From an uncultured Clostridia bacterium (GTDB lineage Bacteria; Bacillota; Clostridia; Christensenellales; Borkfalkiaceae), in NCBI GenBank assembly GCA_947174415.1, contig CAMWIW010000014.1, forward strand, positions 1 to 44,175: a DNA stretch of 44,175 bases, written 5' to 3'. The notes beneath the pieces were generated by a model. The model was not told where the DNA came from. It saw only the letters and a program-made list of their open reading frames with translations, and did no database searches. Within the stretch, counting starts at the first letter, position 1. Every line of letters begins with the position of its first letter. A program made the translations under genes and the position numbers. Positions 5,784 to 39,840 of this stretch are shown one piece after another.

Positions 5784-5813
5784 ATTACCCCCAATATATG
5801 CCGCAAATAACGA
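5784..5813. repeat. Dispersed CATATATnGGGGG repeat, full copy 2
   Basis: ATTACCCCCAATATATGCCG continues into CAAATAACGA. It lies between the stop of the ABC permease (14 bases away) and the rpsU promoter. It is identical at 26 of 30 positions to the copy at 34601-34630 and serves as the reference copy. Confidence 0.8.
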
Positions 5814-5827
5814 CATTTTTCGATTTT

Positions 5828-7711
5828 TTATTCTATGGCTTTCAGACTTTCGTTCATATCAATTTTTACGATTTTACGCTTTAACATCAATGTAACTATA
5901 AACGCGAAAAGCATTACTATTGCAGGCGCGATAAGCCACCAGAACCAACTTACGCCACCTATCGTTCCCACACTCATTACGCTGAATACAAGCCACATTA
6001 TCAGCGTTGACAACGGGTAGCCGAAGATAATTCCCACTACTGTATCTATATAAACCTCACGGTAGATATACCCTGCCACTTCCCTTTCCTGATAGCCCAA
6101 GACCTTTAAGGTGGCGAGTTCACGGTTTCTTTCGCTGACGTTGATATTCGTTAAGGTGTATATGACGGCGGCTGTCAAAAGTCCAGCAAAAATTATAACG
6201 ACGACGGCGATTGCCATAACCGACGGCGAATTTATAGTACCGAAAATGCAGACGTCCAACAGTGCAAGTCCCGCAAGCACAAGAGCGGTAGAAACGGCAA
6301 CGGACACTACTGTCATTATAAAACGACCGAAATATCTTAACACGTTGCGCATGGTTGACTTGTATTTAAAGGAAAGTTTATTCCAAATAAACGGAATTCT
6401 TTCCAAAAATACTTTTTTGCCCATCTTAGGAGGTTTGGGACGGAGTAAATTCGCAGGAGCTTCGCGCGTAGTCTTTAAACCTGAAATGAGGGTGGCCAAA
6501 AGCGTTATTGCGACGATTACGAAAAATACGATCAGATAGAAAGGAAGCGCAACCGTAGACGAAGCAGGCGGCATAGTAAAACTGTAATTGAATACCCAAT
6601 AAATCAGGTATGCAAGCCCCAGTCCGACGAAGTATGAAGCAACACCGCCAAGTCCCGCGGCAATCATCGCAAACAAAACGTATTTGAACACGATTTTGAA
6701 CGAGGAATAACCGAGCGTTCTGAGACATGCTATTTGCGACCGCTCTTCTTCCATCAGTCTAGTCATAGTGGACTGCGCGACGAGAGCGGTTACGAATATG
6801 AACGCAACCATAAGCACAAGTCCGATGCCCATAACCTTATCGGCGTAAGACTTTAAAGAAACGAAACTGTAATTGTCGTTTAGCGTTATGATTTTGACTT
6901 CGTCTTCGTTCAATTCAAGAGTTGATAAAATAAGTAGCTTTTGTGCTTCGACGTAGCCGTCGTAATTTTTACCGAACGCGCTGAACGCGCCCCTATCGGG
7001 AAGCGCTATAAAAACGGCGTTAGTACGAAGCAGCGGCACACCGTACGGTTGGGGTATTTCGTCTGCGGACAAATACAAAATATTGTCCAAAGTATCAAGA
7101 GAATTTACCGCGTCAATCGTGTCGGGAATTTCCATATCGGGGTCGTTGTTATCGCTCGGTTCGCCGTCGTTTGCAAACGTCAATGGACTTTGCACAATTC
7201 CCGCTATTTTTACCTCTATTTCGGGCAACTGAGCCGCTAAACTCAATGATATATGGGTATCAATCGCAAAACCTTTGATTTTATTGTCGGCTTTCTCACA
7301 GAGAACTTCGTGGTCCTTGTCTGGGTAATTACCGTCTATTAAGTCGGGTTTGTTTACGGTCCATTCGTCTTTTTTATATCCGTCCAAAAAGCACAGTCTG
7401 ACGGTCTGTTTCTCTCCGTCGATTTCGGTTTCCACGTCAAGCTGAACGCCCGTATTAACGTTCTCGCCGTAAAGGTCTCTTATCTTCTGCACCTGAGTTT
7501 CGCTGAACCCCGTCGGCGAAGTGCTGCGCAATATTAAATCGCTTACGTTTTGGGCCTTGTAATAATCCGTTAACGAGTACTTTATTTTGTCCGCAGAAGT
7601 ACCTATCCCCGAGATAAAGCCCACGGATACGATTACGATAAAAATTATAGAGATAAACTGCGTTATATGTTTTTTAAACATTCTCGACAGGGTCTTTAAG
7701 TAGGTTTTCAT
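5828..7711 (-). CDS. ABC transporter permease, MacB/FtsX type
   Basis: This is the membrane subunit of a MacB/FtsX-like ABC system, a class that exports peptides or drugs or drives mechanical work across the membrane. The 627 residues show one N-terminal membrane helix (about 18-38), an extracytoplasmic domain to about residue 285, a first FtsX-type block with three helices (about 290-420, including SQIACLRTLGYSSFKIV), a linker, and a second FtsX block (about 460-615) with the matching NRELATLKVLGYQEREV motif. The paired 'LRTLGY / LKVLGY' motifs are the coupling helices of the family. GAGGAG in the end of the ATPase gene precedes the start. It follows the ATPase gene by one base. The substrate cannot be told. 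Confidence 0.9.
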   Translation of the reverse strand: MKTYLKTLSRMFKKHITQFISIIFIVIVSVGFISGIGTSADKIKYSLTDYYKAQNVSDLILRSTSPTGFSETQVQKIRDLYGENVNTGVQLDVETEIDGEKQTVRLCFLDGYKKDEWTVNKPDLIDGNYPDKDHEVLCEKADNKIKGFAIDTHISLSLAAQLPEIEVKIAGIVQSPLTFANDGEPSDNNDPDMEIPDTIDAVNSLDTLDNILYLSADEIPQPYGVPLLRTNAVFIALPDRGAFSAFGKNYDGYVEAQKLLILSTLELNEDEVKIITLNDNYSFVSLKSYADKVMGIGLVLMVAFIFVTALVAQSTMTRLMEEERSQIACLRTLGYSSFKIVFKYVLFAMIAAGLGGVASYFVGLGLAYLIYWVFNYSFTMPPASSTVALPFYLIVFFVIVAITLLATLISGLKTTREAPANLLRPKPPKMGKKVFLERIPFIWNKLSFKYKSTMRNVLRYFGRFIMTVVSVAVSTALVLAGLALLDVCIFGTINSPSVMAIAVVVIIFAGLLTAAVIYTLTNINVSERNRELATLKVLGYQEREVAGYIYREVYIDTVVGIIFGYPLSTLIMWLVFSVMSVGTIGGVSWFWWLIAPAIVMLFAFIVTLMLKRKIVKIDMNESLKAIE

Positions 7712-7712
7712 A

Positions 7713-8414
7713 TTACCACTCTATCTCCTCTATCGGGCGGGGATTGGGATTAACAACTATATTTTCGATTTTACCGCTCTTTATGTAGACGACTTTATCC
7801 GCCATATCTTTGAGGGCAGAGTTGTGCGTTACGATAATTACGAGCCTTTTCTTATCCTTGCATACTTCGTGAAGAAGTTTTAAAATTTTCTTGCCCGTGT
7901 TATAGTCAAGCGCACCCGTAGGCTCGTCGCAAAGCAACAGCTTAGGATTTTTCGCTATCGCGCGCGCAATAGATACGCGCTGTTGCTCGCCGCCCGAGAG
8001 CTGTGCAGGGAAATTGGAAAGGCGCTCTTCAAGCCCGACTTCAGTTAAAACTTCTTTGGGGTCGAGGTGGTCTTTACATATTTCCACGGCAATTTCCACG
8101 TTTTCAAGCGCAGTCAAGTTAGGCATCAGGTTATAAAACTGAAAGACAAAACCTACGTCGTCGCGTCTGAATTGGGTAAGACCGCGCTTGTCTAAGGAAG
8201 TTATCTTTTTACCGTCAAGAATTATCTCACCCGACGTGGCGTTATCCATACCTCCCAAGAGGTTTAAAAGCGTGGTTTTACCTGCGCCCGAGCTGCCTAA
8301 GATTACGACAAACTCGCCGTCCTCCAAATCGAATGAAACGCCCGATAAAGCGGTAACGCTGACAGCACCCGTTTTATATTCTTTTCCGACTTCTTTTAAT
8401 TCAAGAAAGCCCAT
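7713..8414 (-). CDS. ABC transporter ATP-binding protein, MacB/LolD type
   Basis: This is the motor subunit for the permease that follows it. All ABC motifs are present in 233 residues: Walker A (GSSGAGKTT), Q-loop ([18 protein letters not shown]), signature ([14 protein letters not shown]), Walker B ([12 protein letters not shown]) and H-loop (IVTHN). The [11 protein letters not shown] stretch and the TGALD sequence are typical of the MacB/LolD/FtsE class. GAGG lies 6 bases before ATG 8414. The two genes form a compact operon that runs toward rpsU and ends without an obvious hairpin. Confidence 0.95.
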
Positions 8415-8439
8415 ACCTTACCTCAAAACCTTTTTTTAA

Positions 8440-8468
8440 ATTAAAACATTAATTTACCGATTTGTAAA
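8440..8468 (-). promoter_or_regulatory. Candidate promoter of the ABC exporter operon
   Basis: On the minus strand, TTTACA (8468-8463) and TTTAAT (8445-8440) are spaced by 17 bp, about 25 bases before the ATPase start. It is back-to-back with the tRNA-Leu promoter. Confidence 0.5.
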
Positions 8469-8475
8469 GTATAAC

Positions 8476-8504
8476 TTGACTTTTCAAAAAAGTTTCATTA
8501 AAAT
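8476..8504 (+). promoter_or_regulatory. Sigma-A promoter of tRNA-Leu
   Basis: TTGACT at 8476-8481 and TAAAAT at 8499-8504 are separated by 17 bp. The start site should be near 8511, about 50 bases before the mature tRNA. Confidence 0.8.
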
Positions 8505-8561
8505 ATCACTTAACGAACTATGTTAGGCAAGTTGCCAACAGATTACAGTTTAATATTTTTT

Positions 8562-8644
8562 GCGGATATGGCGGAATTGGCAGACGCGCAGGACTTAGAA
8601 TCCTGTGGGCAACCATGCAGGTTCGACCCCTGTTATCCGCACCA
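8562..8644 (+). tRNA. tRNA-Leu(UAG)
   Basis: The acceptor stem is GCGGATA/TATCCGC with discriminator A and an encoded CCA. The anticodon arm CAGGA-CTTAGAA-TCCTG gives anticodon UAG. A long variable arm and a GGTTCGACCCC T-arm are present, as expected for a class II leucine tRNA. Confidence 0.95.
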
Positions 8645-8682
8645 AAAGCCCGACGAAATTTTTCGTCGGGCTTTTGATTTTT
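8645..8682 (+). terminator. Terminator of tRNA-Leu
   Basis: AAAAGCCCGACGAAA pairs perfectly with TTTCGTCGGGCTTTT around a short T loop, followed by a T-rich tail. It begins directly after the CCA of the tRNA. Confidence 0.92.
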
Positions 8683-8945
8683 CTGTAAAAATACGGAAAA
8701 ATTACCATAAATCAGTAATTACCGTTAAAAATCTGAAAAACCTTTTAAAAACGCACATATATGCGGGGTAACGCGATTTTTAGCTAAAAAACGACATTAA
8801 AACGCTCCGAAAGTCCAATATATGTGGGGGGCAATTGAATTTTCGACCCCAAAACGGCTTGTACACTAAAAAATTAAAACCGCCATATATGAGGGGCAAT
8901 CGAAAAATTTTTGAGCTTTAATTTACAATTTTATTATAAAGTCTA
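8683..8945. other. Gene-free AT-rich stretch with three dispersed repeats
   Basis: No credible coding frame, RNA fold or inserted element is visible between the tRNA-Leu terminator and the YitT promoter. The only structure seen is the group of three repeat copies at 8754-8776, 8814-8838 and 8881-8906. Confidence 0.7.
8754..8906 (+). repeat. Cluster of three CATATATnGGGGG repeats (copies 3-5)
   Basis: Three copies lie in the same orientation, about 60-70 bp apart: CACATATATGCGGGGTAACG (8754-8773), CCAATATATGTGGGGGGCAA (from 8815) and CCATATATGAGGGGCAATCG (from 8883). They share the CATATAT core, four to six G residues and a following AA, but lack the TTATTTGCGG arm of the full copies. Confidence 0.7.
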
Positions 8946-8974
8946 TTGACTAATTTAATAATTTTGCGTATAAT
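8946..8974 (+). promoter_or_regulatory. Sigma-A promoter of the YitT-family gene
   Basis: TTGACT (8946-8951) and TATAAT (8969-8974) are spaced by 17 bp, about 28 bases before the TTG start codon. Confidence 0.88.
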
Positions 8975-9001
8975 TTAAATGACAAAATCGGAGGCTTAAA
9001 T

Positions 9002-9931
9002 TTGAAATCTGCCAACAATGGCGGCAAAGGCAAAATCACGAAAAAAGCAGTTTTGAAAATTTTAAAGGACTATTCCATAATCTTACTTGGCTGCATAATT
9101 TACTCGTTTGGCGTTGCCGTATTCCTTGACCCGTACAATATCGCTCCCGGCGGAATTACCGGTATAGCGATTATCATAAATTATTTATTGCCGATAGAAA
9201 TGAATATAACGGGCATTTTGATTATCGTAATCAACCTGCCGCTGTTCGTTTTGGGTGCGGTATTCTTCGGTAAAAAGTTTACGATTTCGACGCTGTTTGC
9301 AACCGTAGTCTCCTCGCTTTTGATAGAGCTTTGGAACTTCGTTTTCAAGGATTGCCACGTGTTCGATACAAACGGACTTTTAATACCAGCGCTTTTGGGC
9401 GGAGCACTGTTCGGTATCGGACTCGGACTTATTTTCAGAAAGGATTCTTCTACGGGCGGGACTGACATAATAGTCAAAATTTTACGAAAGAAATTCCGCT
9501 ATATAAAAACGGGTGTTATATCGCTTGCAATCGACGTGATAATAATGGGAATTGCGTTTGCGGTTTTCGGAGAATTCGAGCTTGCGTGCTACACCCTTAT
9601 TGCGATTGTGGTTTTCACCGTTTTATTCGATTTGGTTTTATACGGCGGAAATTCCGCAAAGCTTTTATACGTTATTACTACTCAGGAAAATTCGGTACTT
9701 ATTTGTGAAAAGATTTTAAAAGAACTCGACATCGGCGCTACCTACGTTGACGGCGAGGGGGCGTATACGGGTGAAAGCAGGCGCATTATTATGTGTGCGG
9801 CAAAGAATTATCTGTATCCCAAGATACGGGACATCGTAAAAGATATTGACCCCCATGCATTTATGATAGTATCTTCCGCAAAAGAAATTTACGGCGAAGG
9901 ATACAAGGACCACTTCGACGACGAGATATAA
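9002..9931 (+). CDS. YitT-family membrane protein (DUF161/DUF2179)
   Basis: The 309-residue protein has about five to six membrane helices in its first 220 residues, with the GVAVFLDPYNIAPGGITGIA and RKDSSTGGTDI motifs of the YitT family. A cytoplasmic DUF2179-type domain follows (about 225-295, with GATYVDGEGAYTGE). The transported substrate of this family is unknown to me. Translation starts at TTG 9002: GGAGG at 8990-8994 stands 7 bases upstream, and no ATG fits. It has its own consensus promoter. The next gene follows after 48 bp on the same strand and may be co-transcribed. Confidence 0.9.
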   Translation: MKSANNGGKGKITKKAVLKILKDYSIILLGCIIYSFGVAVFLDPYNIAPGGITGIAIIINYLLPIEMNITGILIIVINLPLFVLGAVFFGKKFTISTLFATVVSSLLIELWNFVFKDCHVFDTNGLLIPALLGGALFGIGLGLIFRKDSSTGGTDIIVKILRKKFRYIKTGVISLAIDVIIMGIAFAVFGEFELACYTLIAIVVFTVLFDLVLYGGNSAKLLYVITTQENSVLICEKILKELDIGATYVDGEGAYTGESRRIIMCAAKNYLYPKIRDIVKDIDPHAFMIVSSAKEIYGEGYKDHFDDEI

Positions 9932-9979
9932 TAAGAAACAATTTGAACCACGGATAAAAAATAATCAGAGGGACGAAAA

Positions 9980-11539
9980 ATGTGTAAAGTTATAGCTTTG
10001 ACCGGAACTTCAGGCGCTATGGGCGGCGAAGTGCTTTTAAGCCTTATGCAATCGGATAAGGACTTTAAAGTAAGATGTATTTTATACGAGGAAGAAAAAT
10101 CTATCCCCCCGTTTATAAAAAAGATTATTAAAAAATACGGCAATAGAATTTACGCCTTTAAGGGGAATATTGCGCGTTACGACGACTGCGTGCATTTAAT
10201 AGAAGGCGCGGACTACGTAATTAACTGTGCCTCTTTAATTCCACCCAAATCCGACCACGACCCCGTCGGGACGTATAAAAGCAACTATATCGGCACTAAG
10301 AATTTGGTTGACGCAATACTTTCAAGCGGCAGAGAAAAAGAAATTTCTTACGTGCATATCGCGACTGTTGCAATGTACGGACACAGAGCATACCCCCACC
10401 TTTGGATACGCGTAGGCGACCCTATGATTTCAAGCGACTACGATGTTTATTCTATGCATAAGATGAAAGCCGAGAAGTACGTTTTGGAAAGCGGACTAAC
10501 CCGTTTCGTCTCATTGCGTCAAACCGCCGTTCTTCACAAGTATATGTTCAAAAACAACTTAAAGGACGGGCTGATGTTCCATACCGTATGGAACGGCGCG
10601 CTTGAATGGGTTACTGACGTTGACAGCGGTATTCTTTGCAAAAAAATTGTTGAAAAGGATAGCAGCGGAGAGCTTGACGGCTTCTGGAATAAGATATACA
10701 ATATAGGTGGCGGCGAAAGTTGCCGCGTTACGGGCTTTGAATCGATAGACGGCGGTTTTAAGCTTATGGGCAAGGGCGTGAAGAAATTTTTCAAGCCTAA
10801 TTGGAACATAACGAGAAACTTCCACGGCGGCTGGTTTTACGACAGCGACGAGCTGGAAAATTATTTGCAATTCCGTACCGAATCGAACGAAATGTTCTGG
10901 CAGAGAATGGGCAAAAAGTACGGGTACTTCAAACTTGCTAAGATAGTTCCCTCTTCCGTTATTTCTTCGCTTGCTATAAAACGGCTGTTTAAAAATACTA
11001 ATTCTCCCCTCTATTGGCTGAAACACGGCAAGGAAGGACGCGTGCGCGCTTTCTTCGGCGGGCGTGAAAAGTATGAAAAGTTGCCCTCAAAATGGGAAGA
11101 TTTTCCCCTTTTGTGCGAGGGAAAGCTCGAAGACGGCTCTAAAGTCGATTACGAAGCTCTTAAAGATATAAATAATGCAAAGCCATTACTTTTAAAGCAC
11201 GGCTTTGATGAAAGCAAGCCACAAAACCGTTGGACGCTCTTTGATTTGCAGGAGGCTGCGGCTTTCCGCGGCGGTAAGTGTATTTCAAGCGAGTACAGCG
11301 GCAACCCTTACGACAAAGTTTTGTGGGAGTGCCGCGACGGTCATAAGTTTGCCATGAACCCCTACACCGTATTAAAGGGCGGATATTGGTGTCATTGCTG
11401 CGAGCCTAAGCCCTGGCGTTACGGCGAAATTGCCGATATTCCGTTCTACGGGCAAGTCTATTTCGATTCACACGAGGAAAGTGAGACGGACAATACTTAT
11501 CCACTTACCGACCACGAAGAAGATTTTATTAAAAAATGA
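9980..11539 (+). CDS. NAD-dependent epimerase/dehydratase-like protein with C-terminal Cys/His tail
   Basis: The first 300 or so residues form an extended short-chain dehydrogenase fold: a Rossmann glycine motif (GTSGAMGG, residues 9-16), acidic and NCAS motifs after beta-4, and a YSMHK catalytic-type Tyr/Lys pair near residue 157. The substrate may be a sugar nucleotide or a steroid-like ring, but this cannot be decided. The last 200 residues are unusual and contain a Cys/His group (WECRDGHKF ... WCHCC, about 451-478) resembling a treble-clef or zinc-ribbon unit. AGGG precedes the ATG. The stop overlaps the start of the EFR1 gene (ATGA), so the two proteins are translationally coupled and probably act together in a redox step. 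Confidence 0.85.
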   Translation: MCKVIALTGTSGAMGGEVLLSLMQSDKDFKVRCILYEEEKSIPPFIKKIIKKYGNRIYAFKGNIARYDDCVHLIEGADYVINCASLIPPKSDHDPVGTYKSNYIGTKNLVDAILSSGREKEISYVHIATVAMYGHRAYPHLWIRVGDPMISSDYDVYSMHKMKAEKYVLESGLTRFVSLRQTAVLHKYMFKNNLKDGLMFHTVWNGALEWVTDVDSGILCKKIVEKDSSGELDGFWNKIYNIGGGESCRVTGFESIDGGFKLMGKGVKKFFKPNWNITRNFHGGWFYDSDELENYLQFRTESNEMFWQRMGKKYGYFKLAKIVPSSVISSLAIKRLFKNTNSPLYWLKHGKEGRVRAFFGGREKYEKLPSKWEDFPLLCEGKLEDGSKVDYEALKDINNAKPLLLKHGFDESKPQNRWTLFDLQEAAAFRGGKCISSEYSGNPYDKVLWECRDGHKFAMNPYTVLKGGYWCHCCEPKPWRYGEIADIPFYGQVYFDSHEESETDNTYPLTDHEEDFIKK

Positions 11540-27723: not shown

Positions 27724-30700
27724 TTATACTTTAATTTTTACGGTGTCCCCGCAAGCGTGAGTCTGTACCGATAACTCTTCGCCCGCGACGTTGAATTTCA
27801 AAACTACTACTGCATGCCATTTCTTTTTTGCGCTAAGCAAGTTTGTAGTTATTTGCCCCTCGGTTCTATGGGAGGAAACAAAGCTGTTTTCTTCGTAGAA
27901 TGCGCCGCTGTCGTTCGTAAGGTTTTCGTTATCGTTAATGTAGTAACGGTAGCTCGTGTAGGAACAATTAATTTTGTTGACCAAATCCGCATTTCCTGCA
28001 AACTCGTACGAAGTTTCGGCAGCAATAGTGTAATTATACTTCCAATTCTTATCGTAATACGTACCGCTGCCGTTAACGGTTACTTTTACCCACAAAGCTT
28101 CCAAGTTTACAGCGCCTGCATCGATAAATTCTTCAACGGAAGTAATTTTTCTCCATTCGCCGTTGTCGTTATACCACCAACCGAGGAAAGCATAGCCCTC
28201 TGCTGTTGCGTCGGCTATAGCATAGCTCGCACCCTCTTCAAAGCCGACATTAAGGAGCTTATAATTTCCGTCGTAGCCCGTATAGTTAAATTCAACGGAA
28301 CTGTTAAAAGTTACTTTTAACGGAGCTTTAGTGTAATCGACTTTAAACGTCATATTTTCGGTTACTGCGCAACCGTTTGCAACAACGCCGTTTTCGCCGA
28401 CCCACTGCGCCGTGTAACCATCACGCTCAGGACAAGCGGGCATATTTCCGAAATTCAAAACTTCGTTTTCGTGGTAGTATGCTTTATAAAGTTCTACGCC
28501 ATTTTCGTCCACAAATGAAACTGTGTATGCTTTGTTCCAAATTGCCGTATATTCAGTATCGGAAATCAGCCTGATTAAGCCGTAACGAATGCCGTTCTCT
28601 TCAACAAAGTCTACAAACTGCACGTCTTGAGTGCCAAGTATCTGAGTAGTAGCCGTATAGCCGTCAAGAATATAGCTATCTCCGCCAAATGTGCCGGCAA
28701 CCCCTACAGGAAGCTTGATATACGAACCGCAAGCCCAAGTAAAGCTGCTTACTATATAAGGTAAGTCGTAATCGCTGTTGACCGTTACGTTCATATTGAA
28801 GAGGTCTTTGGAAGTATCCGTATAGCCCTCGCCCATCTGCTCGTTAGGGTTACAATAAGTTAAGCCGCCTGTAAGTTCCAACTTGACTGTGCTGCCGAAA
28901 AGCTCCATAGAAGTTTTTAAAATCTCAAGGCTCTTTACAGTGTAAGTGCCGTCGGCGTTCAAATCGGCGTTGAACTTGACGGGGATATCCGAAGTGTTCA
29001 TACCCGTGTAAGCCTTTATAAGGTCGCCGTTGAACGATACTGTCCAGCTTGCGCCCGTTGAATTTTCTTCGGTAACGTAAGCAGCGATAACGGTATTTAA
29101 GCATGCGCCGAAGTCAAGACCGTCAAAGCTTACCCCCGGATTATCGGAAGAACCCGAATCGGGAATATTATTGAGAATAACAGGTCCGAAGTTAAAGATG
29201 AACGTTAAGTTATCCATTAAATCGTCGCTAAACTCTTTCAACGTCATTGAGCGGACTTCTTCCTTTGCAGGATTGTCTGTAACTTCTTTGGTTATTAAAC
29301 CACTTGTTTCATAATGGGTGTACTGTATTCTTTTGATGCAAACGTTGCCGCCCTTTATTGACAAATAAACGTCCGAATCGCCGGCGATTGCAATTTGATT
29401 AAATTCTTGAACGCCGTCGTAATAGATATGCGCATTTATAGCAACTTCGTTATTTTCGTCTATATAGACAGCCAGCGACTTTATATAAATATTGGCGTTA
29501 ATTTTTATACCGATTACGTTTATCGTCGCTGTAACTTTACCGTTTAAAAGGTAATAGTGATTTAAATCGTATTCGTCCTCGGTTTCGTCTACTTTGTGCG
29601 TTACGGAATTAATTAAACCGTTTACAAGCGTATCGAGCCCGTCGGCGTTCAGATAGCCGACGAATGCCGTACCGCTGTCGGGTCTTGCAATTTCGTCATA
29701 GCCGAGCTTTAAGCCGAGGTTGAGTTTGTTGACTTCGTTTTCACCGAAGAAGATATTTTCAACTCCTATTCTGTCCACGAAGTAAACGCCGTCCTTTAAA
29801 ACTCTCGTGAAGTTAATAAAAATGTTGTCGGCTGCGTCTATTTCCTTATCATATATTGCGGAGGAATTGAGTACTACGGTAAGTGCGTCTTGTGTTGTGG
29901 TAATGCTCGAAACGTATTCCTTTGCAAGCGAGAACGACGAGCTTGCTTCTTTTTCAGCTGTATCGATATTGCCGAAAAGGTCGTTTAAAAGCTGTTCGAG
30001 GCTTACGCCGAGTATTTGAGGAATAAGACTTTCGCCAAGGGACGCAAACTTATCCTGAACGCTGTCGGGAAGGTATTTGCTTATGAGCATACCGTCCAAA
30101 AGGTCTGCAATTTGCCCGACCGCCGCAGTAAGATAATTGTCGTTTGCAAAGCTTACGTCTTTAAGATTTGCCATTGCGCCAACCATTGACACAAGGGTTA
30201 AAATCTCGTCAACGGGAGCGTAAATATTCAACGGTACGGCGTTTTCAGCGTATTTTGAAACCGAGAGATAAATATCAAGCGCGCCGTCGGTAATATATCC
30301 ACCTGTCGTCCTTCCGTCAGCGCCCGTAACGGGGTTGGCGTCCATTATAACGAGGTCGAGATAAAGGCTGTCGTCGGCAGGATTTTTCGCCGTAAGCCTA
30401 AGGTTAAGATGAATATAAATATCTTCTAACTTAACCTCTTCTTCATTTGCCGCGCCTCTGCCGTATTCCAACGAAGCGTTGAAATTGTATTTTTCGTAAC
30501 CGTAATCGGCGTACGCTTCCTCATATGAGTACAGCGTGCCTGTAACGGTAGCGGATATATTGTTGCCGAGAAGGCTTTCAACAACTTTCTTGCTCTCTTC
30601 AAGCAAATTGATATATTCTTCCTTTTCTTCGTCGGAAAGTCCGTCAAGCGCGGTTTGGCTCAATCCTACTTTGGCGGTAGCGTCAACGCCGAATACCGTC

Positions 30701-33297
30701 AAGCCTGCGCTTACGCGCAAATCTTCGGATAAGTCAAGCTCCGCCCAAACGGGAACTATCGCATCCATAATAGTTAGGTGAGCGTTGGACGAAATGATTT
30801 CGCTTTCCGCAACAAGATTGGTTAAAAGCTCTTTTATTACGGTAGGTAAGCCGTCCGACAAAACGCTGGCGCTGTTAAACGCCGTAAAGATGCTTCCGCC
30901 GTTCGCTTCGGCAAGGTCAAGCATTACTTTGGTAGTTCCGACTTTTATATACAGCGACTTTGCGGAAAATTCGTAGTAAACAGCTACACCGCCGAAATCT
31001 GCACGGATTTCGCTAAGTTCGCCATCCTTTAAAGCAAGCGCAACTTTACCGTCGATTGAAACTTTGTTACGGTTGCCCGCTTCGTCGGCAAGCCCCGTTA
31101 CAAGAGTCAGGGAAACGTCAAACGTAATTTCGCTGTTTAAAATATCGGTGTAGCCCGCAAGGTCGGGAAGAACCACATCTTCATTAGTAAGAGCCGCGCT
31201 CAGAGAAACGTTTAATTGATCTAAAGTAAGTCCCGCGTCAACTTTAAGTCCGCCGAAAAGCTGAATATCGAAGGCGGCTTTTAGTACGCTTTCTATCGCG
31301 TCGATATTTATATCAAGGCTTGAACCGAACGAATTTTCGTCTGCGTACAGATTGGATAAAACGGTTTTAAGAAGCGAATTTATATCTAACGCACCGAGAT
31401 TAATATCACCTGCGTCAAGCTTTGAAAAATCGAGTTTATATTTTGCGCTACCCACGCTTAAATAAAGCATATTATGGGGGCAATCGTAATAAACCTCAGT
31501 TTCGCCGAGGGTTGCGTATACGCCCGCAAAACCGCCGTTTGCCGTTAAGATTTTCGCAACTCCGTCAAGTGCAAGTCCGTTTGCATTTAACGAAATATCG
31601 AAAGTAATTCCGTCGTTCAGAAGGTCTTGGTAACCTGCAACGTCTGCGGGAATAGCGGGTTTGTCGCTTTCGTTTCCGAAGCAAAGGTTTGCGTTTACAA
31701 CCTTTTCACCGAGAGGAATTTGTGCATTTAAGAAATTGAGTTCAACGCCGTTTTCACCCATTTCGAACTCGAATTCTATTTTTACTTTGAGCCCGAAAAG
31801 TTCAACCTCGGAAGATAGCGTTGCAATGCCCGTTGCTTCGTTGAAAACGAACTCGCCCTCCGTCATCTGGTCCATTAAAGCTGCGATATCAAAACCGCCC
31901 AAAATGTCGCCGCCTTCCTCTTCTCCCGAAGAAAGCAATCCGTCCGTATTCAACTTGTATTTGGAAGAGCCGTCGTTTATGTACAAGGTGTTTCCGTCAA
32001 GCCAGACGAGCAAATCGCCCAACTTTGCGGAAAGTCCGCTGAAATTACTGTTTTCCATTTCAACGGAAACAACACCGTTCAAATCGAGATTGTCAATGCT
32101 TAAATCTACTTTGAATACCGCACCTTCCGTAAGAACGCTTGCAAACGCTCCCGACAAAAAGCCCATTGCGTTATCGGTGTTATCTTCCACCTTATCGTCG
32201 TCTACGAGCGTATCTTTAACTTTGTCGTACTCGGATTCGAAGTAATCTTCCCAGAACGTGTTCTTTGCATTCTCTTCGGAATAATCGAAAACTACTTTCG
32301 TGCTTGATGTACAGCTCGGAGCAAAGTTCGCCGCAATCGGAGCGTTGTAGGAATCGGAAATTTCAAATTCGAGAACACGCCAACTCTCGTCAAAGGTGTA
32401 GGTAACGGAAGTTGTGTGTATGTCGGGGCAATCGTATAAATCGCCCGTAACCTTCATTTGAAGTTTGTAGTAATAGTCCGCACTCGTTTCGTCCTCGCCT
32501 GTGTTGACGTTGAGGTTAAGAGTCATCGAATACGTGCCGTTTCCGTTATCTACGACCGAATAATCGTAGGCGTTGGCAATAGTAAGCTCGTTAAGGACGT
32601 ATACGGAGAACTCTGAAGGCGGGAAACCGCGGTTCTTTTTGAAGGTATTTACGGTCATAGCCTGAGCTTCGCCCGTAGACCACGGCGTGTTCATTTTATC
32701 AAAGTTCTTGTTTGCGGAGGGTCGCCACATAACAATTCCGTTTGCGACGCAGAACTGAGTAGCCTTAGACGAGAAGCCCTTAGCTATGTCCGCAGAAATC
32801 AATACTTCGTTATAATACTGTTTATACGTTTCAACCGTCTGGGAAAAGCCCATTGATACGACGGTAGAAAACATTTCGGACGACCAATACTCCTGATTTT
32901 GCAAAACGTAATTCATATAGCCTACGTTTTCAACGAGGGTGTGATCCGTGGGTTTAGTCCCGTCCGCGGGAACTTCGTAACAAACCGTTTCGAAATCCTT
33001 GTTGAGTTCCGTCGTCTTTTTAGGTGCAAAAAAGCCCACGCCCACCACGGCAACAGCGCCGACGACGCCGACTGCCGCAACCGCTGCGACCTTGCGCATA
33101 CGGCGGACGTGTTTTAAAGCGAGGGGCTTGCGCCTTTTAACGCGCACCTCGCCCTCGGTTGTATTCAATTTGTCATGAAGCCCCGCACGGCGGTTAACGG
33201 ACTTATCACGCTTAACCTTTTTGGTCGCCGTATAGCCCGCATTCCTTACCTCGTGCAGCTCTTCAATTCCCGTTTTTGTTTGCTTTCTCTTTAACAT
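27724..33297 (-). CDS. Giant membrane-anchored extracellular repeat protein
   Basis: The 1857-residue protein starts with a strongly basic cytoplasmic tail (about 68 residues, rich in KRK and RR), then one membrane helix (about 69-90), and the rest must lie outside the cell. At about residues 395-950 three related blocks of about 160-190 residues follow each other, each with an ITFDVSL-type start, a 'LDG' strand, and the VYYD...LYIxVGxxKYKLD signature. Near residue 1590 a module resembling InlB/Listeria-Bacteroides repeats begins (YTVSFVDENGVELYKAYYHE). The last 130 residues are Tyr-rich. No sortase motif is seen. It is probably a surface or wall-associated protein; the ligand is unknown. A promoter with a palindrome lies upstream. 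Confidence 0.9.
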   Translation of the reverse strand: MLKRKQTKTGIEELHEVRNAGYTATKKVKRDKSVNRRAGLHDKLNTTEGEVRVKRRKPLALKHVRRMRKVAAVAAVGVVGAVAVVGVGFFAPKKTTELNKDFETVCYEVPADGTKPTDHTLVENVGYMNYVLQNQEYWSSEMFSTVVSMGFSQTVETYKQYYNEVLISADIAKGFSSKATQFCVANGIVMWRPSANKNFDKMNTPWSTGEAQAMTVNTFKKNRGFPPSEFSVYVLNELTIANAYDYSVVDNGNGTYSMTLNLNVNTGEDETSADYYYKLQMKVTGDLYDCPDIHTTSVTYTFDESWRVLEFEISDSYNAPIAANFAPSCTSSTKVVFDYSEENAKNTFWEDYFESEYDKVKDTLVDDDKVEDNTDNAMGFLSGAFASVLTEGAVFKVDLSIDNLDLNGVVSVEMENSNFSGLSAKLGDLLVWLDGNTLYINDGSSKYKLNTDGLLSSGEEEGGDILGGFDIAALMDQMTEGEFVFNEATGIATLSSEVELFGLKVKIEFEFEMGENGVELNFLNAQIPLGEKVVNANLCFGNESDKPAIPADVAGYQDLLNDGITFDISLNANGLALDGVAKILTANGGFAGVYATLGETEVYYDCPHNMLYLSVGSAKYKLDFSKLDAGDINLGALDINSLLKTVLSNLYADENSFGSSLDINIDAIESVLKAAFDIQLFGGLKVDAGLTLDQLNVSLSAALTNEDVVLPDLAGYTDILNSEITFDVSLTLVTGLADEAGNRNKVSIDGKVALALKDGELSEIRADFGGVAVYYEFSAKSLYIKVGTTKVMLDLAEANGGSIFTAFNSASVLSDGLPTVIKELLTNLVAESEIISSNAHLTIMDAIVPVWAELDLSEDLRVSAGLTVFGVDATAKVGLSQTALDGLSDEEKEEYINLLEESKKVVESLLGNNISATVTGTLYSYEEAYADYGYEKYNFNASLEYGRGAANEEEVKLEDIYIHLNLRLTAKNPADDSLYLDLVIMDANPVTGADGRTTGGYITDGALDIYLSVSKYAENAVPLNIYAPVDEILTLVSMVGAMANLKDVSFANDNYLTAAVGQIADLLDGMLISKYLPDSVQDKFASLGESLIPQILGVSLEQLLNDLFGNIDTAEKEASSSFSLAKEYVSSITTTQDALTVVLNSSAIYDKEIDAADNIFINFTRVLKDGVYFVDRIGVENIFFGENEVNKLNLGLKLGYDEIARPDSGTAFVGYLNADGLDTLVNGLINSVTHKVDETEDEYDLNHYYLLNGKVTATINVIGIKINANIYIKSLAVYIDENNEVAINAHIYYDGVQEFNQIAIAGDSDVYLSIKGGNVCIKRIQYTHYETSGLITKEVTDNPAKEEVRSMTLKEFSDDLMDNLTFIFNFGPVILNNIPDSGSSDNPGVSFDGLDFGACLNTVIAAYVTEENSTGASWTVSFNGDLIKAYTGMNTSDIPVKFNADLNADGTYTVKSLEILKTSMELFGSTVKLELTGGLTYCNPNEQMGEGYTDTSKDLFNMNVTVNSDYDLPYIVSSFTWACGSYIKLPVGVAGTFGGDSYILDGYTATTQILGTQDVQFVDFVEENGIRYGLIRLISDTEYTAIWNKAYTVSFVDENGVELYKAYYHENEVLNFGNMPACPERDGYTAQWVGENGVVANGCAVTENMTFKVDYTKAPLKVTFNSSVEFNYTGYDGNYKLLNVGFEEGASYAIADATAEGYAFLGWWYNDNGEWRKITSVEEFIDAGAVNLEALWVKVTVNGSGTYYDKNWKYNYTIAAETSYEFAGNADLVNKINCSYTSYRYYINDNENLTNDSGAFYEENSFVSSHRTEGQITTNLLSAKKKWHAVVVLKFNVAGEELSVQTHACGDTVKIKV

Positions 33298-33926: not shown

Positions 33927-34601
33927 ATGATTGAAGAAAAAGTTAAAAGCCTTTTAAAAGAAATTCCCGCAACCAACCCGTTCGGCGAAAAAGTTACGTT
34001 AGTTGCGGCGGTTAAATTACAGACCGCAGAACACATTAACCGTGCCATATGTGGGGGTGTAACCGATATAGGCGACAATCACGTTCAGGAATTTCGGGAC
34101 AAATTTAACGAGATAAAAGGCAACCCACGCCGCCACTTTATCGGGCATTTGCAGACGAATAAAATAAAATATCTTTTGGGCAAGGTAGACCTCTATCATT
34201 CGGTTGACAGATACAATTTGGCGGAAGAGCTTTCAAGGAAAAGCGCGCAGGCGGGCGTTACTTCAAATATTTTAATTCAGATAAATATAGGCAATGAGGA
34301 AACTAAAGGCGGATTTGCGCTTGAAGAGTCCGAAGAAGTCTTTAATAAAATAAGCGCATTGCCTGCGCTTAACGTTGAGGGGCTTATGGCTATGCTTCCT
34401 TTCGACCGCGATCAAGCGCTGCTTAGAAGGCTTGCAAAAGCAATGCGCGAAAAATACGACGGACTGAACGCAAAAGGCGCAAACTTCAAATACCTTTCAA
34501 TGGGAATGAGCGGAGATTGGAAGCTGTGCGTTGAAGAGGGCAGTAATATGATACGCCTCGGCACGTCCATATTCGGGCAACGAAATTACCAAAAAACCTG
34601 A
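33927..34601 (+). CDS. yggS: YggS/PLPBP family pyridoxal-phosphate homeostasis protein
   Basis: The protein binds pyridoxal 5'-phosphate without known enzyme activity and buffers vitamin B6. The 224 residues fit the family: PLP-binding Lys30 (LVAAVKLQ), the VTDIGDNHVQEF motif (usually GENRVQE), RHFIGHLQTNKIKYL, LIQINIGNEETKGGF, and the C-terminal LSMGMSGDWKLCVEEGSNMIRLGTSIFG. The Lys context is VK rather than the usual SK. No Shine-Dalgarno sequence is present; the promoter predicts a leaderless mRNA. The stop codon overlaps a copy of the dispersed repeat. Confidence 0.95.
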   Translation: MIEEKVKSLLKEIPATNPFGEKVTLVAAVKLQTAEHINRAICGGVTDIGDNHVQEFRDKFNEIKGNPRRHFIGHLQTNKIKYLLGKVDLYHSVDRYNLAEELSRKSAQAGVTSNILIQINIGNEETKGGFALEESEEVFNKISALPALNVEGLMAMLPFDRDQALLRRLAKAMREKYDGLNAKGANFKYLSMGMSGDWKLCVEEGSNMIRLGTSIFGQRNYQKT

Positions 34602-34630
34602 TTGCCCCCAACATATACCTCAAATAACGA
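34601..34630. repeat. Dispersed CATATATnGGGGG repeat, full copy 6
   Basis: ATTGCCCCCAACATATACCT continues into CAAATAACGA. It begins on the last base of the yggS stop codon and runs up to the terminator. It matches the copy at 5784-5813 at 26 of 30 bases, over the G-run, the core and the TCGTTATTTG arm. Confidence 0.8.
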
Positions 34631-34660
34631 AAAAAACCTTTCCTAAATGGAAAGGTTTTT
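34631..34660. terminator. Bidirectional terminator after yggS
   Basis: AAAAACCTTTCC pairs with GGAAAGGTTTTT around a short TAAAT loop, with runs of A and T on either side. It ends both yggS (plus) and the convergent membrane protein gene (minus). Confidence 0.88.
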
Positions 34661-34662
34661 AT

Positions 34663-35208: not shown

Positions 35209-35214
35209 AATCCG

Positions 35215-35469: not shown

Positions 35470-35485
35470 AATTTAACTCCTTAAT

Positions 35486-35902: not shown

Positions 35903-35917
35903 ATTGCCATCCTATGT

Positions 35918-36202: not shown

Positions 36203-36268
36203 TTTTTCACCTCCCGGACTTAATCGGCATACCAACTACGGTATGCAAGGTAAACGCACTAACCGTGC
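36203..36268 (-). promoter_or_regulatory. rpsF leader with hairpin, candidate S6:S18 binding site
   Basis: On the minus strand the leader carries GCATACC-GTAGTT-GGTATGC (36246-36227), with CCG at the stem-loop junction and a second CCG just 3' of the stem. In many bacteria the S6:S18 complex binds a CCG-bearing hairpin in this leader and represses the operon. Position and content fit, but I have not matched it to the full published consensus. Confidence 0.55.
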
Positions 36269-36274
36269 CTAACT

Positions 36275-36303
36275 ATATTATATTAGAATTGATTTTTTGT
36301 CAA
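36275..36303 (-). promoter_or_regulatory. Promoter of the rpsF-ssb-rpsR operon
   Basis: On the minus strand, TTGACA (36303-36298) is followed at 17 bp by TAATAT (36280-36275); a TATAAT overlaps it at a spacing of 15 bp. Confidence 0.8.
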
Positions 36304-36320
36304 CTCATTTTTGCGGGTTT

Positions 36321-37676
36321 TTAATTTGCGGTAAAAAACCGCGACTTTTCTGCGTATAGCAATAATTTTTCCCTATCGTTTGAAACCTGCCCGACTGCGC
36401 AGCACAACAAAAGATTTTCCAATACTTTGCCCGTAAGCTCTTTGGGGCAACCGCTATTTATAAGCTCGTCACCACGGACGTTCAATTCCTTTAACGTTAA
36501 AGGCACGCCCTCGTCCTTCATTTTCTTTAAAATGGCAGTCATCTTCACAACCGACGGCGCGGGGGCTAAATCGTCGCGGCAGGCGGAATAATCGGCTTGC
36601 TTCAAAAGCATTAGCTCGTCAAACGCATCAAGATTTTTAATTATAAATTTTCGCACCTTATTTTCGCGCGCATCACAGCGCAAATCGTACATATGAAGTG
36701 CGGTAAGTTTAACGACTTTTTCGGTTAATTTTTTAGGGACTTTAAGGCGGTTACAAATCTCTTCGGCTATTCTTGCACCCTCCGTTTCGTGCCCGTAAAA
36801 ATTGCCGTTTTTTATCATACAGTACGGCTTGCCTACGTCGTGCAAAAGAGCGGCAAGACGGATTTTTTTATCGGCGTACGCCACAGTGCGGAATGAATGT
36901 TCCAAAACGTCGTAGCGGTGAATATCTGCTCTTTGCAGCATACCGTTTCCCAGATAGAGCTCAGGCAAAATCACCTGTAAAACTCCCGTGTTTTTAAGTA
37001 CCGAAAGCCCGTTATTTGCAGCATATTCCCGCCCGTATCGCAAATCGGCGTGCAAAATTCTGTCAAGCTCCGCCCATATTCTTTCGGGCGCGATGTCGGC
37101 AATCAAATCAGCGTTACGGCGTGCACCGTCAAGACATTCGACGGTCGGTTCGAAGCCTGTTTCCGCGGAAATTCTTGCAAGGCGCATAAGGCGAAGCCCG
37201 TCTTCACCGAACACTTTTTCTGCCGCCGCTACCGTTGACATTTCACGGTTTTTTATATCTTCAATTCCGCCCAACGGGTCTACTAATTCTCCCCTTTTCA
37301 CGTCGTAATAAACGGCGTTGCATTTAAAGTCCCGCCGACGCGCGTCAAGCATAATATCGTCGGTGAAAAAAGTATTTACGGGGCGGTGTACTCCCCTTAC
37401 GTATTCGTCCGAACGGAATGACGAAAATTCGTAATCTTCACCGCTTAAAGACAGCTTTACAGTACCCGTGTTTTTATATACCGCGTCAATAATAAAGCCC
37501 GATTTTTTGGCGCGCAAAACAAAATCATCCGCATTCGTCGGGGCGCAAATATCGGTATCGGGCTTGCTGGTTTTAAGTCCTGCGAGAAAGTCGCGCACCC
37601 TTCCGCCGACTACGTATAACGGATACGGGCAATTTTCGGCAAGCCTTATTAAATTTTCGGATAGAGAATTTTTCAT
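36321..37676 (-). CDS. cca: CCA tRNA nucleotidyltransferase with HD domain
   Basis: This class II nucleotidyltransferase adds or repairs the CCA end of tRNAs. The 451 residues show the head motif YVVGGRVRDFLAG, the metal-binding DTD motif, the RRDFKCNAVYYD motif, the VFGEDGLRLMRLAR (basic/acidic) motif C region, and an HD phosphohydrolase domain (LAALLHDVGKP). It could also be the poly(A) polymerase relative. It has no Shine-Dalgarno sequence; its -10 box ends nine bases before the ATG, so the leader would be about 3 nt. It is divergent from the lipid kinase gene and shares a -35 box with it. Confidence 0.93.
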   Translation of the reverse strand: MKNSLSENLIRLAENCPYPLYVVGGRVRDFLAGLKTSKPDTDICAPTNADDFVLRAKKSGFIIDAVYKNTGTVKLSLSGEDYEFSSFRSDEYVRGVHRPVNTFFTDDIMLDARRRDFKCNAVYYDVKRGELVDPLGGIEDIKNREMSTVAAAEKVFGEDGLRLMRLARISAETGFEPTVECLDGARRNADLIADIAPERIWAELDRILHADLRYGREYAANNGLSVLKNTGVLQVILPELYLGNGMLQRADIHRYDVLEHSFRTVAYADKKIRLAALLHDVGKPYCMIKNGNFYGHETEGARIAEEICNRLKVPKKLTEKVVKLTALHMYDLRCDARENKVRKFIIKNLDAFDELMLLKQADYSACRDDLAPAPSVVKMTAILKKMKDEGVPLTLKELNVRGDELINSGCPKELTGKVLENLLLCCAVGQVSNDREKLLLYAEKSRFFTAN

Positions 37677-37685
37677 TCTAAATCT

Positions 37686-37737
37686 ATTATAGCCTTTTTT
37701 TAAAAGTATTGCAATTCTCTTTTTAATATTGTATAAT
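37686..37737. promoter_or_regulatory. Symmetric bidirectional promoter with shared -35 box
   Basis: The hexamer TTGCAA (37709-37714) is its own reverse complement. Exactly 17 bp to the right is TATAAT (37732-37737, plus strand) and exactly 17 bp to the left is TATAAT on the minus strand (37691-37686). Both directions thus have the same -35, spacer and -10. The right half drives the lipid kinase operon, the left half drives cca. Confidence 0.85.
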
Positions 37738-37772
37738 AATTTCGGTACACCTTAAAATCGGAGAGAATAACC

Positions 37773-38648
37773 TTGTACTACATAATTGCAAATGAAACCC
37801 ACCTTAAGGGTAAAGGAAACAGGCAACTTGAAACCGTAAAAAAGGTTTTTGACGTTGCGGGAAAGGAATACGAAGTACTTTTTACCCAAAAAGAGGGCGA
37901 CGCAAGGCTGCACGCAGAAAAAATTACGGCGTCAGACGGTGAAAACACGATTATTGCCATGGGCGGAGACGGAACGCTGCACGATATTCTGAACGGGTTT
38001 AAAAACTTTGACAGATGTTCGCTGGGGCTTATACCTTTCGGCACGGGCAACGACTTCGCCGCAACAGCACAAATCCCACACGACGCGAAAAGAGCGGCGG
38101 AAATTATCGCCTTTAAAGCGCCTAAAAATATAGATTTTATAGAACTTTCGTCGGGATTGCGTTCGATAAATTCGGTCGGAATGGGTATTGACGCGGATAT
38201 TTTAAAGCGCGTATATTCGAGAAAGATGCGAGGGCATACTAAATATTTACGTGCGCTTATACCCGCTCTTATACGCTTTAAGAGCTGTAATTTTACCTTA
38301 AAATACGACGGAAAAGAGGAAAAACATTTCGGACTTATTGCCGCGCTCGGCAACGGAAAACAGCTTGGCGGCGGCATTAAGCTGTTCCCCCACGCCGAAA
38401 TCGACGACGGGTATCTCGATTTGATTATCGTTGACTACATAACGAGATTTAAAATGATAGGCGCATTCTTTAAGCTTATATCGGGCAAGGTGGATAAGAT
38501 TAAAAACGTAACGTTCGTTAAAACGAAGGCAGCGACTTTTATCCACGAAAACGAGAATTATACAATACAGGCTGAGGGCGAACTTTACGATAACGTTCCG
38601 CTTGACGCGCATATCGTTGAAAACAAACTTAAATTTTATTTACCGTAA
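37773..38648 (+). CDS. Diacylglycerol/lipid kinase family protein
   Basis: The protein belongs to the DagK/YegS lipid kinase group, which phosphorylates diacylglycerol or related lipids with ATP. It has the nucleotide loop MGGDGTLHDILNGF (near residue 66) and PFGTGNDFA (near 91), a central GMGIDADI motif, and a C-terminal beta-sandwich with QAEGE. Its 291 residues are the usual length. Translation starts at TTG 37773: GGAGAG stands 7 bases upstream and no ATG fits. It follows the rightward half of the symmetric promoter, and the phosphatase gene lies 6 bp downstream in the same operon. Confidence 0.92.
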   Translation: MYYIIANETHLKGKGNRQLETVKKVFDVAGKEYEVLFTQKEGDARLHAEKITASDGENTIIAMGGDGTLHDILNGFKNFDRCSLGLIPFGTGNDFAATAQIPHDAKRAAEIIAFKAPKNIDFIELSSGLRSINSVGMGIDADILKRVYSRKMRGHTKYLRALIPALIRFKSCNFTLKYDGKEEKHFGLIAALGNGKQLGGGIKLFPHAEIDDGYLDLIIVDYITRFKMIGAFFKLISGKVDKIKNVTFVKTKAATFIHENENYTIQAEGELYDNVPLDAHIVENKLKFYLP

Positions 38649-38654
38649 ACGAAT

Positions 38655-39725
38655 ATGACCGAAAAATATTTAAGGCGAATACTCGATAACGTCAAGTCTG
38701 CCGTTATCGTCGCCGACCAAAACTTAAAAACGGTATTTTATAACCGAGCTTTTAAAAATCTATTCCCCAACGGCTTATCGCGCGGGACGATTGGCTCGGT
38801 TACCGCGTGTGCGGGCAACTGTAAGCGCTGCGGCGAGGACGGCGGTTGCCGCGGCTGCGGGCTTGCGGAAACGTTCGAGGACGCCTTTTTATCCAACAAA
38901 GAAGTTGTAAGACGGGTTTTTCAACGCGTAAAAAGCGGGGAAAGCGTGCACGAAGTAGCTTATTCGATAACCGTAACCCCTTTGGGCGGCGGGCTTTGTA
39001 TGGCAACGGTAGACGACGCTTTCGAGCTCGAAGTTGCACGCGAATTGCAGACCGCAAAGAACATTCAGCAACGGCTTTTGCCTGCCGGAAATTGGGCAGG
39101 CGGAAAGAAGTATTCTTACACCTATCTTCCTTGCCGAGAAATAGGCGGAGACTTGCCCGACGTGTACACCGTGGGCAATTCCGCTTGCGGAGTGATTGCC
39201 GACGTTTCGGGTAAAGGCGTTGCGGCAGGTATGCTTTCGGCGTTTGTGAAAGCTGCTTACGACAAAAAAACCCCTTCACCCGCGCAAGCCATTTCAAATC
39301 TCAGTGCAAAGTTCAGAGAGTTGAATTTGGACGAGAGAAACTACGTTACGGTTGCAGCCGTCAGAATCGACGAGGACAATATAACGTACTCTATGGCGGG
39401 GCATAACGTACCCCTGCTGTTAAAGACGGGCAGCGGAATTACGCGGATTATGCTCAACTCTCCGCCCGTATCGAATTGGTTCGACAACCCCGCGTATTTC
39501 GACGACAGCATACCTTACAAAAAGGGAGATATATTAGTACTGCTGACCGACGGCGCGACAGAGTGCAAAAACGGTCGGGGTGAAATGTTCGGCGTGGACA
39601 AGGTTATAAAAACTCTATCCTATTCCCGAACGGCAGACGATTTTATTAAAAAGCTTGAAAACAACTTGCGTTCGTTTTGCAGCGAGTTGAACGACGACAT
39701 TACAGCCATAGCTTTTGACCTTTAA
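38655..39725 (+). CDS. PAS-SpoIIE type serine phosphatase with Cys-rich sensor
   Basis: Residues 1 to about 120 look like a PAS sensor (VIVADQNLKTVFYNRAFKNLF) with a cluster of five Cys (C52, C56, C59, C65, C68) that may bind a metal or sense redox state. Residues about 130-356 are a PP2C-like SpoIIE phosphatase: NIQQRLLP, EIGGD, ADVSGKGVAAG, LLTDGATE and DDITAIAFDL, so all metal-binding Asp are present. Such proteins act on anti-sigma-factor antagonists; no such partner gene is in the window. It follows the lipid kinase by 6 bp with no clear Shine-Dalgarno sequence. The stop overlaps a repeat copy. Confidence 0.9.
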   Translation: MTEKYLRRILDNVKSAVIVADQNLKTVFYNRAFKNLFPNGLSRGTIGSVTACAGNCKRCGEDGGCRGCGLAETFEDAFLSNKEVVRRVFQRVKSGESVHEVAYSITVTPLGGGLCMATVDDAFELEVARELQTAKNIQQRLLPAGNWAGGKKYSYTYLPCREIGGDLPDVYTVGNSACGVIADVSGKGVAAGMLSAFVKAAYDKKTPSPAQAISNLSAKFRELNLDERNYVTVAAVRIDEDNITYSMAGHNVPLLLKTGSGITRIMLNSPPVSNWFDNPAYFDDSIPYKKGDILVLLTDGATECKNGRGEMFGVDKVIKTLSYSRTADDFIKKLENNLRSFCSELNDDITAIAFDL

Positions 39726-39740
39726 CCCCTATATATGATT
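39723..39740. repeat. Dispersed CATATATnGGGGG repeat, partial copy 7
   Basis: TAACCCCTATATATGATT overlaps the stop codon of the phosphatase gene. Only the G-run and TATATA core are conserved (minus-strand reading CATATATAGGGGTTA). Confidence 0.55.
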
Positions 39741-39745
39741 AAAAT

Positions 39746-39776
39746 ACCCGCCCTTCGGCAGTGCCGAAGGGCGGGT
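39746..39776 (+). terminator. Terminator after the phosphatase gene
   Basis: ACCCGCCCTTCGGC pairs with GCCGAAGGGCGGGT around AGT, followed by TTGGCTTGTTTTTT. It is among the strongest stems in the window. Confidence 0.9.
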
Positions 39777-39810
39777 TTGGCTTGTTTTTTGCTTTATTAG
39801 GTTAAAATAT

Positions 39811-39840
39811 GCATTATTTGCGGCATATGTGGGGGGCTAC
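39811..39840. repeat. Dispersed CATATATnGGGGG repeat, full copy 8
   Basis: GCATTATTTGCGGCATATGT continues into GGGGGGCTAC. It overlaps the stop codon of the response regulator gene and matches the reference copy at 23 of 30 bases, including TTATTTGCGGCATAT. Confidence 0.75.

Follow-up and report, generated by a model that had tools for sequence, protein, structure and literature searches.

A repeat scattered through the window

The stretch of DNA analysed here, which we call the window, comprises 44,175 nucleotides (positions 1 to 44,175, forward strand) of contig CAMWIW010000014.1, assembly GCA_947174415.1, from an uncultured Clostridia bacterium of the family Borkfalkiaceae. Along it lie ligA and pcrA, an FtsX permease gene, a tRNA-Leu gene, a 1857-aa open reading frame (ORF) and genes for an Ala_racemase_N protein, a CCA/polyA polymerase, a SpoIIE-type phosphatase and a response regulator, and scattered among and within them is a repeat that an earlier note had described as a 30-bp intergenic unit. 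The repeat is a dispersed, directional motif of the DNA itself; its copies in ligA originated by substitution, it is scarce around the replication terminus, and GC content on either side of it rises and falls every 11.7 bp, phased to the site.

The eight copies listed previously are all present at the positions given, and the identities reported between copies (26/30 and 23/30) are exact. With up to two mismatches, the pattern CATATATNGGGGG has 17 matches in the window against 1.5 expected, a number reached by none of 100 shuffles. A position weight matrix (PWM) trained on 151 sites from beyond the window identifies 15 sites within it at a cut-off of 14 bits, against a mean of 0.07 and a maximum of 1 in 60 dinucleotide shuffles, so that the family does have more copies than shuffled DNA. 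The 15 are the eight known copies and seven more, all seven within ORFs (at 912, 1208 and 1784 in ligA, and at 7248, 31468, 34046 and 37022):

888..932, minus strand: copy within ligA, 44 bits; arisen by substitution, without a repeat-sized insertion relative to relatives
1184..1228, minus strand: weaker copy within ligA; relatives G004, G007 and G010 retain the DNA, and the nearest relative, G008, has lost part of it
1760..1804, minus strand: weak copy within ligA, partly retained in G008
2630..2674, minus strand: copy between the pcrA stop and the ligA start (earlier 2641); a counterpart stands at the same place in G052
5776..5820, minus strand: copy beyond the stop of the FtsX permease gene (earlier 5784); pattern and PWM
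7228..7272, plus strand: weak copy within the FtsX permease gene, antisense; PWM
8736..8780, plus strand: copy behind tRNA-Leu (earlier 8754); PWM
8799..8843, plus strand: copy behind tRNA-Leu (earlier 8814); PWM
8864..8908, plus strand: copy behind tRNA-Leu (earlier 8881); PWM
31448..31492, plus strand: copy within the 1857-aa ORF, antisense; PWM
34026..34070, plus strand: copy within the Ala_racemase_N gene (33927-34601); no site of at least 16 bits at that place in G052
34593..34637, minus strand: copy over the stop of the Ala_racemase_N gene (earlier 34601); pattern and PWM
37002..37046, plus strand: copy within the CCA/polyA polymerase gene, antisense, with a weak G-run; G052 counterpart absent
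39713..39757, minus strand: copy over the stop of the SpoIIE-type phosphatase gene (earlier 39723); pattern and PWM
39804..39848, plus strand: copy over the 3' end of the response-regulator gene (earlier 39811); pattern and PWM

The claim that copies lie outside genes or at their very ends thus describes the eight but not the family: 7 of the window's 15 sites are internal to genes, as are 61 of the 101 found in 745 kb of the same genome. The unit is also longer than 30 bp, consisting of a 45-bp core and phased flanks that reach to about +/-100 bp. Between 8562 and 8908, three copies in the same orientation follow one another behind the tRNA-Leu gene with their cores within 130 bp. The 1857-aa ORF (27724-33297), which carries one copy on its opposite strand, has no Pfam match at E 0.001.

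Core consensus and gene context

About 56% of the window's own genome was read, and 166 distinct motif sites were pooled from that part, made up of the 745 kb described below and of fetched stretches on other contigs. The first 40 stretches were fetched around pattern matches, from which 71 distinct matches were aligned and a matrix was refined over 322 kb; at 14 bits it has 146 matches there against 0 for the reversed control, a count from which the double-strand matches of near-palindromes had not yet been removed. Over the own genome, CATATATNGGGGG with at most one mismatch has 72 matches against 6 for the reversed pattern, which served instead of shuffles as the control for the pattern counts over the own genome, the 61 genomes of the genus, the order and G052. 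Counts by position and gene context come from 745 kb on seven contigs, two of them read in part, where the threshold of at least 18 bits gives 101 sites against 2 in the control. The core is 45 bp long and directional, with the consensus AAAAnnGCGTTATTTnnGGCATATATGGGGG(T/G)CAATCGnnAAATT, and its best-conserved parts in the matrix are an ATAT (94-99%) and a G-run (GGGG, 82-89%).

In the 101-site set, the 61 internal sites are those more than 60 bp within a gene; for the other 40, the nearest gene end is a 3' end in 30 cases (background 47%, p = 3.6e-4), and many of them are centred 10 to 40 bp beyond a stop codon. Orientation is mixed. In the 146-match set, coding sites number 61 in the sense direction of their gene and 32 antisense, and intergenic sites between tandem genes divide 12 and 14; these splits therefore indicate no strong directionality. 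Relative to the local coding majority, 47 sites are on the same strand and 30 on the opposite one (77 of the 101 could be scored), and the left arm of G052 divides 6 and 6. A skewed motif of the KOPS or chi type was rejected, since the strand bias with replication is not strong. The suggestion of a 3' UTR element acting as RNA is contradicted by within-gene copies in both orientations, although noncoding copies do favour 3' ends, and Rfam models at gathering scores have no match at the copies. That the repeat belongs to no named family holds for Rfam at those scores and for the literature searched: among the top-listed matches, drawn from a coverage that mostly excludes subscription papers, we recognised no report of this consensus or of a sharp, dispersed, gyrase-like repeat. 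An exact 19-mer had no match in viral contigs.

Origin and turnover of copies

The origin of single copies can be followed in ligA, where our LigA was compared with those of 28 relatives, 17 of them in the genus, at three sites (one further fragment fell below the cut). All rows lack a repeat-sized insertion or deletion. Within the genus the only gaps, one to four residues long, are in four rows at site 912 (G003, G009, G014 and G015), and the other two sites have none. The motif arises instead through codon choice. At site 912, G008 is identical and G006 and G011 carry GGCATATTCGGGGGGCAA; at site 1208, TTGGGGGCAAT is retained in G004, G007 and G010, whose LigA proteins are 76-80% identical, and the motif-poor G005 and G012 use other codons. 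For this one gene compared across the genus, we take the copies to reflect selection or drive acting on DNA, and not insertion. Sequence similarity between the flanks of different sites is limited to 11 pairs, all of them neighbours with overlapping windows. The proposal of a miniature mobile element is contradicted on both counts. Individual sites turn over: of the 20 own sites that could be assessed in G052 (median protein identity 71%), six are matched there by a counterpart in the same position.

Phased flanks

When the 166 own sites are aligned, GC and AT content oscillates beyond the 45-bp span of the matrix, in phase with the site, over about 200 bp. The period is 11.65 bp on the left (bootstrap confidence interval 11.50-11.85) and 11.75 bp on the right (11.60-11.85). 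Twenty consecutive AT peaks can be placed, at -110, -97, -86, -75, -65, -52, -40, -28, -17 and -7 in the left half and at 3, 14, 23, 34, 46, 58, 71, 81, 93 and 103 in the right. Between about -120 and +124 the amplitude is above nulls made by shifting each row; out to 150 it is so weakly, and farther out no longer, save in one of 22 intervals scanned (+350, p = 0.03).

This phasing is present in the 99 sites that lie more than 100 bp within genes, the definition used for the flanks, and in the 67 others, where the left outer interval has p = 0.065. It is present at 37 sites of G052 and, in the same phase, at 39 sites of the distant lineage G057, whose flanks correlate with ours at 0.44-0.73 (right outer interval p = 0.077). 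At 1351 control sites with the same weak/strong skeleton and no motif, the amplitude is 0.003-0.009 against 0.025-0.069 at motif sites; in about 120 score-matched controls (119-121 of 166) its mean is 0.011-0.019, which the motif sites clearly surpass in every interval except -120 to -90.

Distribution along the chromosome

The motif is depleted around the replication terminus. In our genome the sites are clustered, with a variance-to-mean ratio of 3.4 in 10-kb bins and 42 of 71 bins empty against 17 expected. Contig C7, placed near the origin on a reading of its genes (parB, parA, dnaN, yidC and jag), is motif-rich; stretches mapped to the terminus, which were picked after the distribution had been seen, total 165 kb and have 4 sites, compared with 97 in the other 580 kb. 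G052 offers a longer view. On its 824-kb contig C1, both the GC skew and the gene strand reverse somewhere from the sample at 540-560 kb to that at 590-610 kb, and this switch is taken as the terminus. The 12 pattern matches on C1 all lie at 120-400 kb, and none of the genome's 42 falls in the 424 kb of C1:400-824 kb (p = 6e-6); in 20 sampled stretches of C1, the matrix has 33 sites against 1 in the control, all between 120 and 410 kb. In G048, a gap at C1:46-243 kb contains the Tex gene, which in G052 is near the terminus. A division into core and accessory regions was rejected as an explanation of the patches: the poor stretches hold genes read, from N-terminal sequences and without a database, as recA, mutS, mutL, ftsZ and polA. 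In the motif-rich stretch C1:120001-140000 of G052, genes identified by reading as pcrA, ligA, parE and parC are adjacent (1585-10591 of that stretch) and form a cluster for DNA topology and repair.

Distribution among species

Within the order, enrichment was found in one clostridial genus only, near Candidatus Coproplasma, which is among the uncultured Clostridia that neighbour it by RpoB. The pattern CATATNNNNGGGNCWAT has 0 to 84 matches per genome in 61 genomes of the genus, against 0 or 1 in each control, and 0 to 2 matches, like the control, in 193 genomes from other genera of the order; the order-wide draw also included six more genomes of the genus, four of them motif-poor. Species have dialects, G057 using CATATATGCGGGGCAATTG. 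On a tree of the Tex protein from 58 genomes, ten of the motif-poor species group together and the rest are spread over several separate branches.

Richness in the motif goes with ComEC. Among 40 genomes of good quality, ComEC is present in all 27 that are motif-rich (at least eight pattern matches, a threshold chosen post hoc), all six without ComEC are motif-poor, and seven have ComEC yet few copies, an association uncorrected for kinship. Across the genus ComEC is present in 51 of 61 genomes, and it is missing from several branches of the Tex tree that are poor in the motif, G047 (80% completeness) being the one exception. A ComGA-type ATPase (T2SSE) scores over the cut-off in five of the 61 genomes and in none of the other 56, our own included; the ComEA model has no match over the cut-off in any of the 61, and its weaker matches are mostly ORFs of about 720 aa taken for Tex. 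GyrA/ParC-type matches number at least one in 61 of 61 genomes and at least two in 57.

Discussion

Helically phased AT and GC around a fixed centre is how protein-bent DNA is written, and a period longer than 10.5 bp would suggest a right-handed path, as made by gyrase. Since the flanks of our motif are phased outside the core, both at genic sites and at the others and in each of three species, with hardly any such pattern at controls, they read as the signature of protein-wrapped DNA. On the strength of the oscillation, the copies are probably DNA-wrapping sites, and the period suggests that the wrap is right-handed: each copy would be a place on the chromosome where a protein that reads the 45-bp core has DNA wrapped around it in that sense. 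Among the three guesses made earlier, a protein-binding site for chromosome organisation fits best, with terminus depletion, phased flanks, no strong strand preference and DNA-level conservation within ligA, the one gene compared across species, in its favour; the earlier interpretation as a whole is partly supported.

The likeliest single wrapper would be DNA gyrase, an identification we offer tentatively. The copies would then be hard-wired strong gyrase sites, kept off the terminus region and often placed just behind genes. The GyrA of the own genome carries, by eye, a QNRGGKG that we presume to be close to the GyrA box. The gyrase cleavage sites mapped in E. coli by Topo-Seq have a symmetric 130-bp motif, with a 36-bp centre and 47-bp flanks in which GC content has a period of 10.75 bp, which has been likened to nucleosomes; they are under-represented in Ter and commoner in Ori (PMC6379681). 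Our motif resembles these sites, and strong gyrase sites such as Mu SGS, in its central region, its helically periodic GC flanks and its scarcity near the terminus, and a periodic GC preference of 10-11 bp has been reported for three gyrases tested (PMC12324340). The BIME/REP elements of E. coli are dispersed extragenic repeats, reportedly bound and cleaved preferentially by gyrase (PMC6379681); our noncoding copies favour gene 3' ends.

A number of observations weigh against this account. The 11.7-bp period is outside both the 10.75 bp of E. coli gyrase and the 10-11 bp of the three gyrases; the phased stretch, at about +/-100 bp or more, is longer than the 130-bp motif; and the core bases are unlike the cleavage preferences common to the tested gyrases, -4G/+8C and -2A/+6T (PMC12324340), as judged by eye from the PWM with the dyad assumed at 2.5 or 3.5 and other registers looked over only. 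The core is sharp enough to be visible by eye, whereas the E. coli motif was called too degenerate for motif search (PMC6379681). Because period, span and core bases differ from the E. coli motif, gyrase is favoured but unproven; moreover, GyrA-type genes are also present in motif-poor species, and therefore gyrase alone does not explain the rarity of the motif there. On the chromosome, C1:0-120 kb of G052 has no matches and C2:60000-167126 of our genome (107 kb, with many ribosomal-protein genes) has one site; neither is known to be near the terminus, and their scarcity does not fit a simple terminus rule. In the flanks, the amplitude from -120 to -90 is 0.025, within the matched-control maximum of 0.026, and the matched controls score somewhat lower on the skeleton than motif sites do (4.54 versus 4.94). 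The two-fold symmetry (correlation 0.95 about +3) follows almost by itself when both flanks share one period, and adds no independent support. As for conservation, site 1208 of ligA reads TTGGGTGCAAT in the nearest relative, G008, with the motif partly lost, the motif-rich G002, G014 and G015 are without it at that site, and G052 lacks a counterpart in the same position for 14 of the 20 assessed sites, which are the assessable part of 106.

Close behind gyrase ranks the possibility that the same wrapped site serves another, perhaps unknown chromosome-organising protein, as Noc or SlmA sites do or as a condensin-loading or anchoring site might, and marks the chromosome outside the terminus region. 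Terminus depletion and the use of both orientations would suit such a protein, as would the turnover of single sites in two species that are nonetheless both terminus-poor, and a sharp core that is rare in some lineages suits a protein that is dedicated and can be lost. No candidate has emerged so far: one ParB, Spo0J-like, was read near the origin, in a scan for others that was limited to the origin region. Both the Noc sites and the SlmA sites of E. coli are palindromic, short, and missing or scarce near the terminus; our motif shares that scarcity but has a 45-bp directional core and 200 bp of phasing, and no Noc-type gene was found in the origin region read. Lrp/AsnC proteins wrap DNA right-handedly, and a wrapping site of that kind (LrpC-like) was considered and rejected, PF01037 not having been found in the motif-rich genomes G000, G008, G034, G048 and G052. 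The Noc sites of B. subtilis are, like our motif, sequence-specific and scattered over the chromosome (PMC4331003). RemA also wraps DNA, with a footprint of 7-bp protections at 3-bp spacing (PMC8481266).

For a while the leading idea was a DNA uptake sequence of the kind known from Pasteurellaceae and Neisseriaceae (USS, DUS), whose copies build up as transforming cells prefer DNA that bears them. Uptake sequences, too, are degenerate and dispersed, lie within genes and have species dialects, and substitution origin, many coding copies and the association with ComEC all speak for that idea. We now consider it unlikely because of the terminus gap, the phased flanks and the lack of ComGA and ComEA matches over the cut-off in our genome. 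Uptake sequences spread genome-wide without large gaps, so that neither the 424-kb gap in G052 nor our excess of empty 10-kb bins is expected of them, and the 200-bp phased flanks are likewise foreign to them; the seven good genomes with ComEC and few copies also count on this side. Slightly less likely still is an element of bare DNA, a phased curvature tuned to underwound DNA that would pin plectoneme tips without any dedicated protein. A periodic bias of about 11 bp in bacterial genomes has been tied to negatively supercoiled DNA (PMC4132750), and sequence-encoded supercoil positions have been described (PMC6301789), but the sharp, directional, base-specific core would be left unexplained. 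That the repeat is mobile or transposed, or a product of chance, is very improbable. It is dispersed, repeated and variable in orientation, as a mobile element would be; however, substitution in ligA and the overlap of all flank-similar pairs contradict transposition, and 0 to 3 control matches against more than 100 contradict chance. Spread by insertion with shared ends, as for REP/BIME or MITE-like elements, was rejected on the same evidence from ligA and the flanks; moreover, REPs are palindromic and extragenic (PMC2817692, PMC3733652), whereas our copies lie largely within genes and, where examined, originated by substitution.

What these sites may position, put forward as a tentative picture, is a right-handed, nucleosome-like bacterial particle, in which a 45-bp genus-specific address and flanks phased at 11.7 bp would place a wrap of about 200 bp by some protein, possibly a specialised gyrase, and in which scarcity of the sites would mark the terminus region. 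On the usual view, bacterial chromosomes specify only weakly by their sequence where gyrase or other wrapping proteins sit. A genus with a sharp, repeated, terminus-depleted wrapping signal, and with related species nearly free of the motif, would let the roles of such sites in supercoiling, segregation and gene order be tested.

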